From Fructilactobacillus cliffordii (lineage in GTDB: Bacteria; Bacillota; Bacilli; Lactobacillales; Lactobacillaceae), in assembly GCF_024029355.1 (NCBI RefSeq), contig NZ_CP097117.1:186001-250000 (forward strand): a stretch of DNA of 64,000 bases. Direction: 5' to 3'. Numbering within the stretch: position 1 is the stretch's first letter; each line of letters starts with the position of its first letter. Both the position numbers and the translations under genes were made by a program. Positions 18,097 through 28,873 of the stretch are shown piece after piece. The notes under the pieces were generated by a model. The model was not told where the DNA came from and made no database searches. It saw nothing but the letters and a program-made list of their open reading frames with translations.

Positions 18097-19419
18097 TTAT
18101 TCCTTAATGAGGCCTTTAAAGAGCCCATACACAAATTCTTCCGGATTAAAAGTCTGGAGGTCGTTAACTCCTTCTCCTAATCCGACGTACTTCACGGGAA
18201 TCCCCAGATCCTGCTTGATGGCCAGAACAATTCCACCCTTGGCCGTTCCATCTAACTTCGTCAAAACAATTCCGGTAATATCTGCTACATCACGAAAGAG
18301 CTTGGCTTGAGTTAAGGCGTTTTGTCCGACCGTTGCATCAATTACCAAGAGGACTTCTTGCGGTGCCCCTGGAATTTCTCGTTGGATGATTTTATTCATC
18401 TTTTCCAGCTCTTTCATCAGGTTAACCTTGTTTTGTAACCGTCCCGCTGTATCAACTAACAAGATGTCGTAATCTTCGTCTTTAGCTCGTTTCACCGCGT
18501 CAAAGACTACCGAAGCGGGATCGCTACCTTCTGGTTTTTGCACGATGTCTACCTGATCGCGGCGCGCCCATTCAGCTAGCTGTTCAATGGCTCCCGCCCG
18601 GAACGTATCAGCCGCAGCCACTAACACTTTTTTCCCTTCCGAACGATACTGGTTCGCCAGTTTTCCAATCGTGGTCGTCTTTCCAGCTCCATTAACCCCA
18701 ATCATCAGAATTACGGTCGGGCCGTCCGGATTTTGTTGCAGTTCCATCGATTGTTGGTCCGGAACGTCGTAAATTTCGACTAGTTTTTGCACGATGAAGT
18801 TTTGGACTTCATTGCGATTTTTAATGTTGTTTAACCGCACAGCATCACGAAGTTGGTCACTGATGTCAGTTGCAGTATTAACCCCCACATCAGCCTGAAT
18901 TAAGGTATCCTCTAAATCATCAAAAAAGGCTTCATCCACCGACCGGAAGTTCGCAAACAATCGGTTTAAACTTTGACCAAATGAAGACCGTGATTTCGAT
19001 AACCCGTGCTCATATTTTTGCTCGGCTGCTTGCATCGTTTCTTGTTCTGATTCCTCAGACTGCTTGGCTGAAGCTGATTCTTCTGTGGCGACAGTTACTG
19101 ACTCTGACTTAATTTTCTCCGCGGAAGCTGCCGTTTCAGACGTTGCTTCCGTTGTACTTTCTGAAGTAGTGGCTTCCGATTCCATTGCAGTTGAGCCTTC
19201 GTTTACTTGCGGGCTAGCACTTTCACTTGCAGAAGCGATTGCTGTTTCCGTACTAGCCGTTGATTGCTCAGTGCTAACAGCTGACGTCATTTCTGATTGC
19301 GCGGCATCAGATTCAGCTGCCTGGGATTGTTCTGCGGAAATTAATTCAGAACCATCAACTTGCTCCGGATGTTCGTGCTCGTTCTGATTTTTTCGTTTAA
19401 AAATGTCAAATAATCCCAT
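18097..19419 (-). CDS. ftsY: SRP receptor FtsY with a long acidic Ser/Glu/Ala N-terminal domain
   Basis: 440 residues. The C-terminal NG domain (from about residue 140) is standard: IGVNGAGKTTTIGKLA, DTFRAGA, DTAGRL, TKLDGTAKGG. Residues about 12-135 are a low-complexity acidic region rich in Ser, Glu, Ala and Thr. An acidic A region is known in other FtsY proteins and helps membrane or translocon docking; this one is unusually Ser-rich. The start ATG 19419 lies inside the end of smc (14 nt overlap) with AAGGAG upstream. Confidence 0.96.
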   Translation of the reverse strand: MGLFDIFKRKNQNEHEHPEQVDGSELISAEQSQAAESDAAQSEMTSAVSTEQSTASTETAIASASESASPQVNEGSTAMESEATTSESTTEATSETAASAEKIKSESVTVATEESASAKQSEESEQETMQAAEQKYEHGLSKSRSSFGQSLNRLFANFRSVDEAFFDDLEDTLIQADVGVNTATDISDQLRDAVRLNNIKNRNEVQNFIVQKLVEIYDVPDQQSMELQQNPDGPTVILMIGVNGAGKTTTIGKLANQYRSEGKKVLVAAADTFRAGAIEQLAEWARRDQVDIVQKPEGSDPASVVFDAVKRAKDEDYDILLVDTAGRLQNKVNLMKELEKMNKIIQREIPGAPQEVLLVIDATVGQNALTQAKLFRDVADITGIVLTKLDGTAKGGIVLAIKQDLGIPVKYVGLGEGVNDLQTFNPEEFVYGLFKGLIKE

Positions 19420-22400
19420 CGTTATGTCTCCTTTGTTGGGTATCTTCTAAGTTAACGGATACTAACTTTGAAACTCCAGAATCCTGCATGGTAATCCCTA
19501 CCAATTGGTCTGCATAAACCATCGTTTCCTTTCGGTGGGTAATCACAATAAATTGGGTTTGTTGTTTCAATTTTTGCATATAACGAGCGAAACGATCCAC
19601 ATTAGCGGGATCAAGCGCGGATTCTGCTTCGTCCAAAATCACGAATGGTACTGGCTTCACCTGCAAGACCGCAAACAATAAAGCTAAGGCAGTTAATGCC
19701 TTTTCTCCACCAGATAACAAACTCAAATCCCGATACCGTTTTCCTGGTGGTTTCACAAGAATGTCAATTCCCGTTGTCAATAAGTGATGGGGATCTGCTA
19801 GTTTTAGTTTAGCTTCTCCACCACCAAAAATATGCCGAAAGACTTCAGTAAAGGCGGAAGCCACCTCGTTAAAAGTGGTTTGAAACCGTTCTTTCACCGT
19901 TTGATCCATCTGATTCATAATCGTTAATAACTGAGTCTTCGCCGTTAAAAGATCGTCTAGCTGTTCATTTACAAAATCCGAGCGTGTTTTCAATTCATCA
20001 TAAGCCGAAATTGCTTCTACGTTAACGGGCCCAAGGGCGGTAATTTGGTCTTGAACCTGGTCCAATTCTTGTTGCAAAGTAGCTTCGTCTAAATCAAGAA
20101 CCTGCAGTTCCTGGTTAGAACTATCCTGTAAGGATTGCAATTCCGATTGGACTTCGGTTAGATGTTGCTGTTGAATTTTAGCATCCACCTGAAGCTCATG
20201 AGCCTGTTGCTGAACCTTTGTCAACGATTGGTGCTGGTCTGTAATTTCACTTTCCAACGTCTCAGCCTTAGTTCTTCCCGTCTTGATTTGTTGTTTAATT
20301 TCCTGTAACTCTTGTTGTTGTTTCTCAATCTGACTTTGGAGTTCAGCAGGATTAATGGTTGCATCTGATTCTAGTTCAGCCAAACCTTGTCGCAGTTGAG
20401 TCAATTGCTGTTGTAATTGAGTTTCATCCTCCTGTGCAGTTTGCAATTGCTTCGTTACCTGATGCACCTGATTGCGTTCCTGTTTCAGTCTTTCTCGAAT
20501 CTGACTCTCCCGCTGTTGCTGTTTCATCAAAACAGACTGACTTTGTTGCTGTTGTTGCTTATGGGTTTGGATTGCCTGTTTCAGGCGCTTGACCGTTGCT
20601 TGATTCTGATCTAATTTAGCTTGAGTTTGGGCAATAGCTTGCGAATCTACTGGCGTTTGCTTGTCATCTGCAAAATTCAGTTTTAACTGCAGTCGAGTCG
20701 CCGCCTGTTCACGTTTTTGTCGTTCTAATTGTTCCGTTAATTGCGCAACTTGTTGCTGCTGCATCTTTAACTCCGCAGTCTGAGTTGATTCTTGTTGATA
20801 CCACTCGTCCCGTTTAGTTTGAGCAGTTTGCCCTGCTTGCTTAATTTCTGTCAAACGTTGTTCCTGTTGTTTTAACTGTTGTTGTAACTGGGTTTTTCGT
20901 TGCGTTAGCTGGTCTAATCGTTGGCGTTGCCGCAAGATTCCACTTTCATCACGTTGATTTTTTCCTCCGGTAATGGATCCTCCTGCATTAACCACCTCTC
21001 CGGCTAACGTTACAATTTTAACCCGGCGTTGAACCAGTTGACTAATTGCCGTGGCATGCTTCAAATCGTCTGCAATGATCACGTTTCCCAACAAATGGAC
21101 TTTAACCCGTTTCATTTTGGCCGGCATGGTGACTAAGTCAGCAGCGACACCTAAAAAGCCGGGTTGTTGTTCAGCCATCCGTAACAAACTGGGATTCACA
21201 AATCGTTCATTAATGGCATCTAGGGGCAATAACGTTACCCGACCGAGTTGCCGTTGACTTAAAAAGCGAATGGCCTGCCGGGCATTTTTGACGTTGTCAA
21301 CTACAATTTGCTGGATGGCGCCGCCTAGCGTGGTTTCAATCGCTTGTAAATAACGCTCCTCAACCTGCAAGAAATCACCGACTGGTCCTAAAATCCCAGT
21401 TAATTCGTCACGATGTTGCAGTAAATTCCGACTGCCCCGGTACAAATTATTATGCCCCGTTACCATATTTTGTAAGCTATCACATTCGGTCTTAACCGTC
21501 TGCAAATCACGCAGTTGTTGATACCAACTTTGTTGCTGCTGTTCCTGTTGATTGGCCAGCTCATCAACTTGGGCTTGAAACCGTTGTTGCTGTGCTTGTG
21601 CTTGCGTAACTTGTTGTTGCAAGTTCTCTACGTTCTGCGTGGCCGTGGCTAATGTTGCTTCCTGACGTAGTTGTTCCGTTTCTAGCTCTCGTAATTGCCG
21701 TTGTTTTTCTTGATAGGCCTGTTGTTGTCGTTCAGACAGTTGATCCGCCATCCGCAACTCGTTTTTTTGATTCGTTAACTTTTGCATTAGCGCAACGTAT
21801 TGACTTTGAGCTTGCTCTAATTCAGCCTCTTCTGCATCTACCTGTTTCAATTTTTTCGTGGCATCACTCGCTTCAATTTGCTTGGTTAGCGCCTGTAAGC
21901 GTTCGATAGTTGTTTGTTCCGTCGTTTGAACTGCTTGCAGTTGTTCTTTCAGCTGATTAATTTTTTCCTGCTCTTGTTGATGCCGTTCCTGAAGTTCAGT
22001 GAGCCGGGTTTGATTAAATTCAAGCTGCTGTTTGCGGAGTTTAGCTTTCCCCGTAACTGATTCTAGTTGCTTCGTCGCCGCTAATAGTTGCTGTTGCAAT
22101 TCATCTTGCCGTTGTTCAGCCGTTGTTAGCCGTTGATGCACCGTTTGCTTCTGTTCATTTAACTGTTCTAGTTGCTTCGTTAGACGTTGTTGGTCAACTG
22201 CTTGATCTTGCAATTGAACAGTAGTATGTTGCTGTTGCTGCTGAAACTGATGCCGTTGAGTTACCAACTGAGTATAGCGTAACTGCTCCAAACGAGCCGT
22301 ATGTTCTAAGTACTCATTAGCCGTTGCACATTGCGCTTTTAACGGCTCTAACTGCTTATTTAGTTCGCGGGCAATGTCTGAGACCCGTTCGACGTTCGCC

Positions 22401-22954
22401 TGCGTATCAGCTAGTTTCTTTTCCGAATCAGCCTTTTGTTTTTTATACCGATACACTCCCGCAGCCGTTTCAATCACTGCCCGCCGTTGTTCTCCGCTTC
22501 CGGCTAAAATATCATCCACGTTTCCTTGAGAAATAATCGACAGTGACCCTTCTCCTAAACCAGTATCTAAAAACAGACGCTGGATATCACGTAAGAGGCA
22601 TTCTTGATCATTAATTAAATAGTTACTCTCACCATTGCGATAGTAACGTCTGGTAATTTTAACCTCGCTATAATCGGTGGCTAGGTAGTGATCGTGATTT
22701 TCAAATTGCAAACTTACTTCGGCCCGATTCAAAGGACGCCGATCATTAGAACCAGAAAAAATGACGTCCTTCATTTTTTGGCCCCGTAGTTGCTTAGCCG
22801 ACTGTTCCCCCAAGGCCCACCGAATTGCTTCAATAATGTTACTTTTCCCACTTCCGTTGGGACCCACGATTCCCGTTAAACCATCTTGACAGTCAATGAC
22901 CGTTCGCTCGGCAAATGATTTAAATCCAGAGATTTGAATTGACTGTAACTTCAC
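19406..22954 (-). CDS. smc: Chromosome segregation ATPase SMC
   Basis: 1182 residues, full length. Walker A GPNGSGKSN at about residue 32, long coiled coils, a hinge near residues 520-640, and the C-terminal LSGGEKALTALALLFA signature with a Walker B segment FVILDEAESALD. The coiled coils are exceptionally Gln-rich, with several Q4-Q5 runs. Forms the core of the ScpAB condensin that organises replicated DNA. GTG start. It sits in the rnc-smc-ftsY-ylxM-ffh operon. Confidence 0.97.
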   Translation of the reverse strand: MKLQSIQISGFKSFAERTVIDCQDGLTGIVGPNGSGKSNIIEAIRWALGEQSAKQLRGQKMKDVIFSGSNDRRPLNRAEVSLQFENHDHYLATDYSEVKITRRYYRNGESNYLINDQECLLRDIQRLFLDTGLGEGSLSIISQGNVDDILAGSGEQRRAVIETAAGVYRYKKQKADSEKKLADTQANVERVSDIARELNKQLEPLKAQCATANEYLEHTARLEQLRYTQLVTQRHQFQQQQQHTTVQLQDQAVDQQRLTKQLEQLNEQKQTVHQRLTTAEQRQDELQQQLLAATKQLESVTGKAKLRKQQLEFNQTRLTELQERHQQEQEKINQLKEQLQAVQTTEQTTIERLQALTKQIEASDATKKLKQVDAEEAELEQAQSQYVALMQKLTNQKNELRMADQLSERQQQAYQEKQRQLRELETEQLRQEATLATATQNVENLQQQVTQAQAQQQRFQAQVDELANQQEQQQQSWYQQLRDLQTVKTECDSLQNMVTGHNNLYRGSRNLLQHRDELTGILGPVGDFLQVEERYLQAIETTLGGAIQQIVVDNVKNARQAIRFLSQRQLGRVTLLPLDAINERFVNPSLLRMAEQQPGFLGVAADLVTMPAKMKRVKVHLLGNVIIADDLKHATAISQLVQRRVKIVTLAGEVVNAGGSITGGKNQRDESGILRQRQRLDQLTQRKTQLQQQLKQQEQRLTEIKQAGQTAQTKRDEWYQQESTQTAELKMQQQQVAQLTEQLERQKREQAATRLQLKLNFADDKQTPVDSQAIAQTQAKLDQNQATVKRLKQAIQTHKQQQQQSQSVLMKQQQRESQIRERLKQERNQVHQVTKQLQTAQEDETQLQQQLTQLRQGLAELESDATINPAELQSQIEKQQQELQEIKQQIKTGRTKAETLESEITDQHQSLTKVQQQAHELQVDAKIQQQHLTEVQSELQSLQDSSNQELQVLDLDEATLQQELDQVQDQITALGPVNVEAISAYDELKTRSDFVNEQLDDLLTAKTQLLTIMNQMDQTVKERFQTTFNEVASAFTEVFRHIFGGGEAKLKLADPHHLLTTGIDILVKPPGKRYRDLSLLSGGEKALTALALLFAVLQVKPVPFVILDEAESALDPANVDRFARYMQKLKQQTQFIVITHRKETMVYADQLVGITMQDSGVSKLVSVNLEDTQQRRHNDGII

Positions 22955-22969
22955 GAACGTTCACCCACT

Positions 22970-23680
22970 TTATTGTAGTTTTTGGTCTTTGATACCAAGT
23001 TTATTTAACGCAGCTTTAGCAGCTGCTTGTTCAGCACTTTTTTTCGAATGACCCTCACCCACGCCTAGTTCTTGGTTATCGACCAAAACAGCCACTTTAA
23101 ACTGCCGGTCGTTGTCAGGTCCGTCTTCATCTAAAAGTTCGTAGTTAATGTCGACGGGTCCATTAACTTGAATTGCTTCTTGTAATTCGGTCTTATGGTC
23201 AAAGAATTCGTCAAACCAACCTTCATCAAGCTTAGGAAAAATTACTAAGCGACAAAAGTTTTTCACGGTTTCAATTCCCTGGTCCAAATAAACGGCCCCA
23301 ATGAACGATTCAAAGATGTCACACAGTAACGAATCGCGATTGCGAGCGCCCGCCTTTTCTTCTCCTTTTCCCAACCGAATGTATTTATCAAAGTGACATT
23401 CACGGGCAAAGCGACTAAAACTATGCCGATTAACCATCGCGGCTCGGAGCCGGGTTAACCGTCCTTGGGGCATTTCTGGGTAGCGTTTAAAAATGTAATC
23501 AGAAACCACTAACTGATAAACCGCATCGCCTAAAAACTCCAATCGTTCGTAAAACTTAAGGTCTTCATCTGGATGCTCGTTAACGTAGGAAGCCTGCGTA
23601 AAGGCTTCGTCTAATAATGCTTCGTTGTTAAATTTAATGTTATAATCACTGGCTAATTTGTGATCAAATTCTTTCTGCAA
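22970..23680 (-). CDS. rnc: Ribonuclease III
   Basis: 236 residues: RNase III domain with the signature ERLEFLGDAV (about residues 45-54) and a second acidic site CDIFESFIGA, then a double-stranded RNA-binding domain ending SKKSAEQAAAKAALNKLG. It cleaves rRNA precursors and other duplex RNA. The start is TTG 23680, supported by GGGAGGA 5-6 nt upstream. It leads the smc-ftsY-ylxM-ffh operon. Confidence 0.96.
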   Translation of the reverse strand: MQKEFDHKLASDYNIKFNNEALLDEAFTQASYVNEHPDEDLKFYERLEFLGDAVYQLVVSDYIFKRYPEMPQGRLTRLRAAMVNRHSFSRFARECHFDKYIRLGKGEEKAGARNRDSLLCDIFESFIGAVYLDQGIETVKNFCRLVIFPKLDEGWFDEFFDHKTELQEAIQVNGPVDINYELLDEDGPDNDRQFKVAVLVDNQELGVGEGHSKKSAEQAAAKAALNKLGIKDQKLQ

Positions 23681-23711: not shown

Positions 23712-23720
23712 ATTATAGCA
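23712..23720 (-). promoter_or_regulatory. Promoter of the rnc-smc-ftsY-ylxM-ffh operon
   Basis: A perfect extended -10 (TGC followed by TATAAT) on the minus strand just downstream of the acpP terminator hairpin. The -35 position lies in the hairpin and does not match, typical of extended -10 promoters. Confidence 0.7.
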
Positions 23721-23726
23721 TTAAAC

Positions 23727-23758
23727 GAAAAACCCCATCAGTCAATGATGGGGTTTCA
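23727..23758 (-). terminator. acpP terminator
   Basis: Stem AAACCCCATCA/TGATGGGGTTT with a 5-nt loop, followed on the minus strand by TTTTCG. It begins 2 nt after the acpP stop and isolates plsX-acpP from rnc. Confidence 0.88.
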
Positions 23759-23759
23759 C

Positions 23760-24011
23760 TTATTTTTGCTTTGGTGTATTTTTAACGATTACGGTTACTA
23801 AGTCTTGAACTGTATCAATCTGTTCCGCGGCATCGTCTGGAATGACATCCCCAAACTCATCCTCAAGCTCAACGATAAAATGAGCCAAGTCCACAAAATC
23901 GGCGCCTAAATCACGTTGAAAATTAGTTTCTAGGTTAATCTCATCCTTTTCAACTTGAAATTGATCTTCCAACGTTTGTGCTACCGTTGCAAATACCGTT
24001 TGTTCATCCAT
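23760..24011 (-). CDS. acpP: Acyl carrier protein-like protein lacking the phosphopantetheine serine
   Basis: An 83-residue acidic helical protein with the ACP pattern and an ELEDEFG segment after the prosthetic site. The invariant DSL motif is replaced: residues 35-41 read LGADFVD, with Phe39 (codon TTT at 23895-23897) at the Ser position. The following Glu of helix II is replaced by His (DLAHFIVELEDEF). A 4'-phosphopantetheine arm could therefore not be attached. The frame is intact, with a strong ribosome binding site (GGTGGAGGG) and location directly after plsX. Either a repurposed scaffold or protein ligand, or decay of a redundant ACP; a functional ACP would have to be encoded elsewhere. 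Confidence 0.85.
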   Translation of the reverse strand: MDEQTVFATVAQTLEDQFQVEKDEINLETNFQRDLGADFVDLAHFIVELEDEFGDVIPDDAAEQIDTVQDLVTVIVKNTPKQK

Positions 24012-24029
24012 GGTAAAATCCCTCCACCG

Positions 24030-25049
24030 TTATTTTTGCTGTTGATCAGCATGGAATTGCATTGCAATTCCGTGCACTAAATTTGAATTAGCCACTTCAG
24101 CTGCGCTCTGCAGGGCGTAGAAAATTGTTTTGGCATTACTATTTCCGTGCGTTTTAATTACTGGTGCTTTCAATCCCAGCAAGACAGAACCACCATACCG
24201 CGTGTAATCCATCTTTTTGGCAATTTGTTTTAACGCTGGTTTTAACAATAGACCCCCGAGTTTCTCTCGGATCCCACCATCATTAATACTATCTTTAATC
24301 ATATTGACCACGGCCAGAGCACTACCTTCAATCCCCTTTAAAGCTGCATTGCCAGTAAATCCATCGGTGACAGCCACGTCGGTTACATTATGTAAGAGAT
24401 CGCGTGCTTCCACGTTTCCAATGAAGTTCAGCTCCCCGGCTTGACCCATTTTTTCGAGTTCTTCATACATTTTTCGGTGGTTGACGTCCCCTTTATCTGG
24501 TTCTGTTCCGTTGTTAATTAAGCCAATTCGAGGGTTATCCATCTTACGCACCAATTGACTGTACAATTTACCTAGTTGGGCGTACTGAAGCACGTTTTCC
24601 ACCTTAGCATCTGCATTCGCGCCGGCATCAATCATGGTAAATCCCTGATCATTATCAACGACTGGCAACGTCACAATTAACCCAGGTCGACTTATTCCGC
24701 GCATCCGACCGATAATTAATAAACCCGCGACCATCAGGGCCCCGGTATTTCCAGCTGAAAGCAATAAGTCCGCTTCCCCATCTCGAACCGCCTGAGCTGC
24801 GAGGACTAAACTCGCCCGTTTCTTCTTTTTGACCGCTCGCACCGGTTCATCATCCATTTCAATTACTTCATCAGCGTGAACAATCTGAATGTGCTCCTGA
24901 TTTTTGACTAACGGCTCAATTTGCTGTTGGTCTCCAAACAAGATGTATTCTACATCGTTCTGACTAGCATCACGAGCTAATTCTGCGCCCGCCACGATTG
25001 CTTGGGGAGCATAGTCGCCACCCATGGCATCAATTGCAATTTTAATCAT
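24030..25049 (-). CDS. plsX: Phosphate acyltransferase PlsX
   Basis: 339 residues with the family N-terminus MIKIAIDAMGGDYAP, then LLSAGNTGALM, and TDGFTGNAALKGIEG. Reversibly converts acyl-ACP to acyl-phosphate, feeding PlsY in phospholipid synthesis. It lies between recG (11 nt) and the ACP-like gene (18 nt). With fakA two genes upstream it links exogenous fatty-acid phosphorylation to the acyl-phosphate pool. No fapR gene is present between recG and plsX. Confidence 0.97.
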   Translation of the reverse strand: MIKIAIDAMGGDYAPQAIVAGAELARDASQNDVEYILFGDQQQIEPLVKNQEHIQIVHADEVIEMDDEPVRAVKKKKRASLVLAAQAVRDGEADLLLSAGNTGALMVAGLLIIGRMRGISRPGLIVTLPVVDNDQGFTMIDAGANADAKVENVLQYAQLGKLYSQLVRKMDNPRIGLINNGTEPDKGDVNHRKMYEELEKMGQAGELNFIGNVEARDLLHNVTDVAVTDGFTGNAALKGIEGSALAVVNMIKDSINDGGIREKLGGLLLKPALKQIAKKMDYTRYGGSVLLGLKAPVIKTHGNSNAKTIFYALQSAAEVANSNLVHGIAMQFHADQQQK

Positions 25050-27166: not shown

Positions 27167-28873
27167 TTATTCCACCGAAATAATGAACGGATAAACTGGT
27201 TGATTTCCAGCGTGAATTTCGATTTCTAATTCATCATCGACAGCTGCGGCGGCTGCTTCAACTTGTTTCGCATCAGCTTCCGTCGCCCCCTCACCGTAAA
27301 TAATCGTCACGTTTTCACTGTCATCATCTAACATTTGCTTGGTCATTTGCACAGCTGCTTCGTCTAACGTTTTCGCTGTAACCTGGATCTGACCATCAAT
27401 GATGCCCATGAATTGTCCTTTTTTAATTTCTAAGCCATCAAGCTTGGTATCCCGAATGGCCGTCGTCACCTGGCCACTCTTAACTGTATCTAACGAATCA
27501 TCCATTGCCGTTTGGTTATCGCTCAAACTAGCCTCAGGATTGTAAGCAAACATGGCTGTCAATCCTTGCGGAATGGTTTTGGTGTGCACCACCTTCATCG
27601 GAACGTCCGTTAAATCTTCTGCTTGTTCGGCAGCTAAAAAGATATTTTTATTGTTAGGTAAAACCAAAACGTGCTTGGCGTTCGTCGTATTGACAGCCTT
27701 CACAATGTCCTCGGTACTAGGATTCATGGTCTGCCCACCACTAATAATTTTGGTAACGCCTAAACTCTTAAACAGTTTTTCTAATCCAGCTCCGGCGACA
27801 ACGGCGATCACTGCCATTTCAGCAGCTGGTTCTTCTGGAACAGCTTCCTTTGCCGGCATGGTGGATTCAGCTTCTTCATCATTTTCCATGATGGCTTCTT
27901 GTTGTTCCCGCATGTTGTCAATCTTGATGTTAATCAAATCACCAAAATTTTGACCCCAAGCCAAAACCTTGCCAGGATGTTCCGTATGAATGTGTACTTT
28001 GGCCACTTCATCGTCATTAATCACTAACAATGAATCACCGAGGGGAGCGAGATGATCATAAAAATGATCATAATCAAATTTATCTTTGTACTCCTTGCCC
28101 TTTCCAAAGCGTACCGTCATTTGAGTACAGTATCCATAGACAATGTCATCGGGGTTCAGTTGACCTTGCGCACTCGCATGGTCTGATTTTTTCACCATCT
28201 CGTCCATCTTGTTAGCTTCGACATTAAACTTAGCATGAACGTCATCGGAAGGCTCACGGTTATTCAAAATGTCAGCAAAGGCTTCCAGCACAAAGGTCAA
28301 TCCTTGTCCCCCAGAATCAACGACCCCGACTTGTTTCAAAACCGGAAGTAAATCCGGCGTTTGCTTCAAAGCCGTTTGAGCACCTTGCTTGATGGCATCG
28401 CTCACCACTCCTAAATCATCAGTTTGGGCTGCTTCTTTGCGACCAGCATTGGCCGCAAACCGAATGACCGTTAAAATGGTTCCTTCCGTCGGCTTCATCA
28501 CTGAACTGTAAGCAGTTTTAGCTCCGGCAGTGATGGCATCGGCAAATTCTTGCGCCGTTAAATCGGTTTTTCCTTCTACGTTTTTAGAAAAGCCTCGGAA
28601 AATTTGGGACAAAATGACCCCGGAATTTCCTCGAGCTCCCATCAGTAAACCCTTGGCCAGTGCCGCTGCTTTAGCTCCCACCGTTTGTTGAGATTCCTTA
28701 GCGACGTACTTTGCTCCACTCGCAAACGACAAACTCATATTCATCCCGGTATCCCCATCTGGAACCGGAAAAACGTTTAAAGAATTAATAAATTCTGCAT
28801 TATTTTGGAGGACGACCGCTGCAGCTTGAACCATTTGGTCGAACTCTTTAGTAGTAATCTTCGTTACTGACAC
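27167..28873 (-). CDS. fakA: Fatty acid kinase catalytic subunit FakA-like (DhaL-DegV-like)
   Basis: 568 residues. The N-terminal Dak2/DhaL nucleotide-binding domain carries PVPDGDTGMNMSLS (metal-binding Asp pair, about residues 37-40) and MGARGNSGVILSQ. A middle domain and a C-terminal DegV-like domain follow, the architecture of FakA/YloV. FakA with a FakB lipid-binding partner phosphorylates exogenous fatty acids. GTG start with GGGAG upstream. It is paired with the Asp23 protein gene as in other Firmicutes. Confidence 0.93.
   Translation of the reverse strand: MSVTKITTKEFDQMVQAAAVVLQNNAEFINSLNVFPVPDGDTGMNMSLSFASGAKYVAKESQQTVGAKAAALAKGLLMGARGNSGVILSQIFRGFSKNVEGKTDLTAQEFADAITAGAKTAYSSVMKPTEGTILTVIRFAANAGRKEAAQTDDLGVVSDAIKQGAQTALKQTPDLLPVLKQVGVVDSGGQGLTFVLEAFADILNNREPSDDVHAKFNVEANKMDEMVKKSDHASAQGQLNPDDIVYGYCTQMTVRFGKGKEYKDKFDYDHFYDHLAPLGDSLLVINDDEVAKVHIHTEHPGKVLAWGQNFGDLINIKIDNMREQQEAIMENDEEAESTMPAKEAVPEEPAAEMAVIAVVAGAGLEKLFKSLGVTKIISGGQTMNPSTEDIVKAVNTTNAKHVLVLPNNKNIFLAAEQAEDLTDVPMKVVHTKTIPQGLTAMFAYNPEASLSDNQTAMDDSLDTVKSGQVTTAIRDTKLDGLEIKKGQFMGIIDGQIQVTAKTLDEAAVQMTKQMLDDDSENVTIIYGEGATEADAKQVEAAAAAVDDELEIEIHAGNQPVYPFIISVE

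Follow-up and report, generated by a model that had tools for sequence, protein, structure and literature searches.

Acyl carrier proteins (ACPs) are defined by an arm linked to a serine. By analogy, the closest tested counterpart of the protein described here would be the mitochondrial ACP (mACP) of Plasmodium falciparum, in which this serine became Phe113 and in which the Phe113Ala substitution weakens both Isd11 binding and growth (PMC8547962). The two proteins share the same substitution at the same site, and in mACP the carrier function has been lost and the fold and acidic contacts have been kept; unlike the protein described here, mACP is mitochondrial and is bound to Isd11–Nfs1 in Fe–S cluster assembly (PMC8547962). 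In Enterococcus faecalis, AcpB carries phosphopantetheine and is the superior acyl acceptor via PlsX (PMC6509188, PMC9083066), and acyl-AcpB produced through FakAB and PlsX enhances the binding of FabT to its promoter (PMC6509188, PMC9083066, PMC13046290). In E. coli, the ATPase activity of MukB, an SMC-like protein, is stimulated equally well by apo-AcpP and holo-AcpP (PMC8602292). This is likewise a protein contact made without the prosthetic group; unlike the ACP described here, AcpP retains Ser36 and its function as a carrier. Fixed-phrase searches of open-licence full texts gave no bacterial ACP that lacks the Ser in this way, and the available parts of two Fructilactobacillus papers (PMC12724224, PMC11393972) do not treat the gene.

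The window, i.e. the whole stretch of Fructilactobacillus cliffordii DNA that was analysed (64 000 nucleotides), contains the following features around this gene.

19406..22954, minus strand: smc (TIGR02168, 1031.6 bits), two genes downstream of acp

22970..23680, minus strand: rnc, RNase III (TIGR02191, 240.4 bits)

23712..23717, minus strand: TATAAT, a weak candidate, found by eye, for the −10 box of an independent promoter for rnc

23730..23756, strand not assigned: terminator-like hairpin in the acp/rnc gap; the scan lists it on the plus strand only, and on the minus strand, read by eye, TTCGTTT comes after it

23760..24011, minus strand: Ser-less ACP in the AcpB position, 83 amino acids, assigned from profile matches and a predicted four-helix fold

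23880..23882, minus strand: codon 44, His (Glu in 49/49 ACPs from outside the genus)

23895..23897, minus strand: TTT codon for Phe39 at the phosphopantetheine-serine position (Phe in 9/9 genus ACPs, Ser in 49/49 others)

24020..24025, minus strand: GGAGGG ribosome-binding site, 8 nt before the ATG and within the 18-nt plsX–acp spacer

24030..25049, minus strand: plsX, acyl-ACP:phosphate acyltransferase, 339 amino acids (TIGR00182, 342.1 bits; cut-off 243.4), upstream of acp with an 18-nt gap

27167..28873, minus strand: YloV/FakA-type fatty acid kinase (TIGR03599, 651.7 bits, above cut-off; FakA equivalog NF038248, 648.8 bits, below its cut-off of 975)

The initial annotation had described an intact, well-started and well-ended frame with Phe39 at the prosthetic site, and both points were verified: the ORF has an ATG start preceded by the GGAGGG box, a TAA stop and no interruption, and codon 39 is TTT. 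The product scored 37.4 bits against PF00550 (E = 3.2e-9; cut-off 20.8), which places its family membership beyond chance, and 79.7 bits against the NCBIfam acyl carrier protein model NF002150 (cut-off 66). Against TIGR00517 it remained below the cut-off of 70.45 (61.6 bits), as did the fab ACP of the same genome (58.7 bits). AlphaFold2, run with five sequences, predicted four helices (residues 3–18, 39–53, 59–64 and 68–78; mean pLDDT 85), with helix II beginning at Phe39. In a Foldseek search of the PDB, the best 50 of 365 matches were ACPs or complexes that hold an ACP, with a query TM-score of up to 0.88. Of the solved structures, the Enterococcus ACP 2n50, which is presumably AcpB, matched best in sequence (80.3 bits). 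By family profile and predicted fold, the ORF is classed as an ACP. Proteins of this type could be wrongly labelled as acyl carriers by automatic annotation, as the score of the window ACP above the NF002150 cut-off illustrates.

Ser and Cys are both absent from all 83 residues, and the sequence thus rules out pantetheinylation by the ordinary route; an alternative attachment residue of the usual kind is ruled out in the same way. The F. cliffordii genome (1,459,401 bases in one contig) contains three PF00550 matches, namely the window ACP and two ACPs with a DSL motif. One of the latter is in a complete-looking fab operon, fabZ-fabH-acp-fabD-fabG-fabF-accB-fabZ-accC-accD-accA-fabI, in which the genes were named by reading the ORFs, with an NCBIfam check that covered the first fabZ and acp. 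The other adjoins a gene for which the top-scoring NCBIfam models are 4′-phosphopantetheinyl transferases, all below their cut-offs. The suggestion that this is an apo-only ACP in a genome with normal ACPs, one of them in a fab cluster, agrees with these observations, and a genome without another ACP is rejected. The second DSL ACP and the transferase-like gene lie directly side by side (L121:679-1544; G000:C1, approximately 714,179-715,044), apart from the fab operon. Another member of the genus has an additional ACP–FabH pair beyond the fab operon (G006:C14:4095-5318).

For comparison, 60 genomes were sampled, comprising ten of Fructilactobacillus (G000–G009, the window's included) and 50 from outside the genus. 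Loci L189, L210, L213 and L214 were left out of the analysis. The PlsX-linked ACP has Phe at the site in 9/9 copies across the ten Fructilactobacillus genomes, within a motif that reads DFVDLA, DFIDLA or DFIDMA. All nine frames are intact, the proteins are 42–99% identical to that of the window, and the Phe codon is TTT in all but one copy, which has TTC. Outside the genus, 49 of the 50 genomes carry an ACP at or near plsX, and the site is Ser in 49/49; the gene is next or close to plsX in 45 of these and some 2 to 7 kb distant in G043, G048, G050 and G056, and G047 has no ACP at or near plsX. An exact Phe pattern gave 12 matches in 397 genomes of the family (the nine genus ACPs and three non-ACPs), and a Phe/Leu/Tyr/Cys/Trp pattern gave 14 matches in 398 genomes of the class, of which the window's own was the only ACP; because exact patterns were used, these surveys missed variants with other neighbouring residues, and matches were judged not to be ACPs by reading their ORFs. 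A sequencing or assembly artefact behind the Phe codon, for which no supporting evidence was found in Fructilactobacillus, is refuted for the genus by the presence of Phe in nine genomes with two different codons, and we give it next to no probability. A sequencing error in the window is rejected on the same grounds. On this sequence evidence the change from Ser to Phe is genus-wide and old, a point absent from the initial annotation, as are the failure to find FabT in the genus, the species that lacks the gene and the Ser-less Clostridia lineage described below. A single loss of the serine in the Fructilactobacillus ancestor forms part of our best explanation.

In the tenth Fructilactobacillus genome, G005, plsX, the hairpin and rnc are present, and the plsX–rnc interval holds no ACP gene. 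The gene is thus dispensable in G005, which retains plsX. At this locus (L096, G005:C12) the hairpin and a TATA-like box still precede rnc, as judged by eye.

In a tree of 79 rows and 82 columns, in which many deep forks are open and the bootstrap had not settled, the nine genus ACPs group as a single clade (97/97) whose stem branch is long (0.92). The 21 AcpA sequences form one group (100/100) with the window-type ACP outside it. The Phe clade is placed among the plsX-linked ACPs, which are not one group (12 of them, belonging to other families, branch with AcpA at 95/95) and whose deep forks are weak. NG86 dN/dS values for the Phe-ACPs ranged from 0.011 to 0.219 (19 of 21 pairs computable, from seven of the nine sequences, without G003 and G006; two pairs saturated, and dS above 1 in 17 of the 19), and YN00, which ran for nine of the 21 pairs, gave 0.059–0.278. 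For the pair G000–G004, dN/dS was 0.011 for the Phe-ACP (dN 0.005 at dS 0.443), 0.000 for the fab ACP (AcpA), 0.022 for PlsX and 0.051 for FabH; for G001–G007 the respective values were 0.151, 0.089, 0.038 and 0.072. Low dN/dS indicates purifying selection on the Phe-ACP gene, somewhat weaker than on its neighbours in the G001–G007 pair. A pseudogene is rejected on account of the 9/9 intact frames and the dN/dS range. Slow decay of a redundant ACP towards a loss already completed in G005 would be consistent with the missing gene there, with the long stem of the Phe clade and with a constraint somewhat below that on AcpA and PlsX in one of the two unsaturated pairs; we consider it very unlikely in view of the nine intact frames, a Phe that is invariant across proteins of such different identity and the near absence of amino-acid change between G000 and G004. 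The initial annotation had favoured a retained non-canonical role over decay and had proposed dN/dS as a check; the substitution pattern is not relaxed and, with the genus-wide Phe, agrees with that preference.

Further changes accompany the loss of the serine. In the alignment, the nine genus ACPs and the 49 others share no residue at columns 39, 43, 47, 71 and 74, which correspond to Ser36, Val40, Met44, Ala68 and Tyr71 of the E. coli protein. Residue 44 is aligned with E. coli Glu41. The replacement of this helix II Glu by His, claimed for the window copy, was confirmed there; it is not fixed in the genus, in which residue 44 is His in five ACPs and Lys, Arg, Gly and Glu in one each (Glu in 49/49 others). 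Most acidic residues of helix II are retained in the genus. In E. coli ACP, Ala68 is directed into the acyl cavity and Met44 outwards, and Tyr71 is sensitive to long acyl chains (PMC12469350). By analogy, Leu at position 71 of the Phe-ACP would fill the acyl cavity, and residue 43, a smaller Ala, would lie one turn past Phe39. Columns that are invariant among the nine are concentrated in residues 34–53 (15/20, versus 9/63 elsewhere; Fisher p = 8e-7), where mean pairwise identity is 0.89 (0.52 elsewhere). This segment is also better conserved in the 49 Ser-ACPs (0.69 versus 0.43), so that its conservation in the genus is partly a general ACP trait.

The window ACP resembles E. faecalis AcpB in its gene position directly downstream of plsX, in its separation from the AcpA of the fab operon and in its ACP fold. 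AcpB bears the arm and serves FabT, whereas the window ACP is Ser-less and belongs to a genus in which no FabT was found. FabT was sought beside fabH at 30 loci, FabH having been found in 46 of the 60 genomes: of the 20 loci from outside the genus, 17 have a FabT gene next to fabH, and fabZ directly precedes fabH in all ten genus loci (L122–L131). A FabT profile gave 158–240 bits on the 17 syntenic FabTs (158–224 on the 11 outside its training set) and at most 40 bits genome-wide in G000–G009, so that no FabT was recognised in the ten Fructilactobacillus genomes. The window ACP is thus distinguished from an AcpB-type acyl acceptor by having no attachment residue, and from an AcpB-type FabT ligand by a genus in which FabT was recognised in 0/10 genomes. 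FabT was also not recognised in G013 (44.2 bits), G032 (37.0 bits) and G034 (46.5 bits), with the controls G010, G021, G022 and G030 at 157.8–220 bits. These three genomes keep the Ser, and the loss of FabT is therefore not sufficient for the loss of the serine; as a sufficient cause it is rejected. It does fit a loss of carrier function in the Phe-ACP, and may have ended the need for the plsX-side ACP to carry acyl chains. Genomes with no recognised FabT may still have one that has diverged strongly, in view of weak, nearly full-length MarR-like matches (G034, 46.5 bits; G009, 36.8 bits). The three genomes belong to three other genera, and FabH is present in each (L136 in G013, L132 in G032 and L142 in G034).

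The replacement of an essential Ser by Phe in every copy of the genus suggests that the protein is probably a binding partner and not a carrier. We propose that an ACP in the AcpB position lost its pantetheine serine and was then kept as a binding protein free of the prosthetic group. It would dock on PlsX through its acidic helix II, with Phe39 providing the hydrophobic contact otherwise made by the acyl-pantetheine arm. In this way it would regulate the PlsX reaction that links acyl-phosphate and acyl-ACP, as a fixed subunit or gate that works independently of acyl chains. We estimate a probability of about 0.9 that the protein has been kept for binding in one form or another and not as a carrier; that PlsX is the partner, in the manner proposed, is close to an even chance. 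The Phe substitutions of mACP and of the Fructilactobacillus ACP would have arisen independently, and we know of no Isd11–Nfs1-type partner for the window ACP.

Gene order, through the 18-nt spacer and the hairpin between acp and rnc, favours PlsX as the partner. The initial annotation had put forward PlsX, or an acyl-phosphate complex with FakA, as a possible ligand. The acp gene is probably co-transcribed with plsX. The distance from plsX to the first possible acp start is 9–30 nt in the nine genus loci and at least 38 nt in 19 other linked loci. The hairpin scan found four sites (shuffled sequences: mean 1.6, sd 1.3), and other members of the genus have similar hairpins 3′ of the ACP stop, as seen by eye. 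The TATAAT candidate is weak because the same scan did not list 23712..23717. Counting against PlsX, a comparison of ten genus sequences of the enzyme with 20 others showed just four positions that are clearly specific to the genus and gave no obvious sign of co-evolution, and the ACP is missing from G005 despite the presence of plsX.

The binding could also have the opposite sign, with the Phe-ACP as a decoy or inhibitor that blocks ACP binding to PlsX (alternatively to PlsC, FabD or some other enzyme that uses acyl-ACP) and lowers flux while accepting no acyl chains itself. Its position beside plsX and its largely preserved acidic helix II without the Ser would suit such a function; since helix II is altered at the hydrophobic residues 43 and 47 and at Glu 44, ordinary acyl-ACP sites may fail to recognise it, and we regard the decoy as improbable. 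A retained apo-ACP ligand of a protein other than PlsX (SMC, RNase III, FakA or another) appears somewhat unlikely. MukB, which we take to be a distant relative of this SMC, counts by that distance against SMC as the partner. E. coli apo-AcpP acts on MukB without the arm and as holo-AcpP does (PMC8602292), so SMC and other proteins are possible partners, and both smc and rnc are neighbours of acp; the terminator-like hairpin that parts them from acp counts against them.

The Phe-ACP bears on the control of PlsX, which links fatty acid uptake and synthesis in Gram-positives, in bacteria with no recognised FabT. The Phe-ACP would also offer a clean system for studying an ACP as a pure protein ligand.

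A second Ser-less lineage was found in Clostridia. A genome-wide scan, which confirmed five of 170 stretches, gave a Clostridia MAG (G420, L038) with plsX, ACP and rnc in which the site reads DLGADFIDLQE. This ACP is the only PF00550 match of the MAG, which may be incomplete, and was the only ACP among three matches to the Phe pattern in 147 genomes of its order. In all five genomes of this Clostridia genus (G420, G951, G952, G940 and G950; L200–L204, respectively) the ACP flanked by plsX and rnc has no Ser; Phe is present in one and Glu, a type seen in this set of five genomes, in four. All five score above the PF00550 cut-off (29.2–39.1 bits). They thus resemble the window ACP in the plsX-acp-rnc locus, the PF00550 match and the missing Ser, and differ from it in having Glu in four of five cases and in belonging to a different bacterial class; by taxonomy, the lineage is independent of Fructilactobacillus. 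Phrase searches of open-licence papers gave no description of the Clostridia protein. That rnc adjoins the Ser-less ACP here as well is consistent with a partner other than PlsX, and SMC in particular is disfavoured by a membrane-protein ORF, in place of smc, after rnc in the two Clostridia loci that were read beyond rnc (L038, L211).

More generally, the plsX-side ACP slot may have repeatedly yielded pseudo-ACPs free of the prosthetic group (with Phe in Fructilactobacillus, and with Glu and Phe in the Clostridia genus) that are dedicated, acyl-independent regulatory subunits of PlsX and the bacterial counterpart of the malaria mitochondrial ACP; we advance this tentatively, as more doubtful than probable. 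If free-living bacteria have lost the Ser throughout a genus under selection, and a second lineage lacks it at this locus too, the work of an ACP as a carrier would be separated from its work as a binding protein. The four Clostridia genomes other than G420 each have an additional carrier-like ORF with Ser in the motif (L205–L208).
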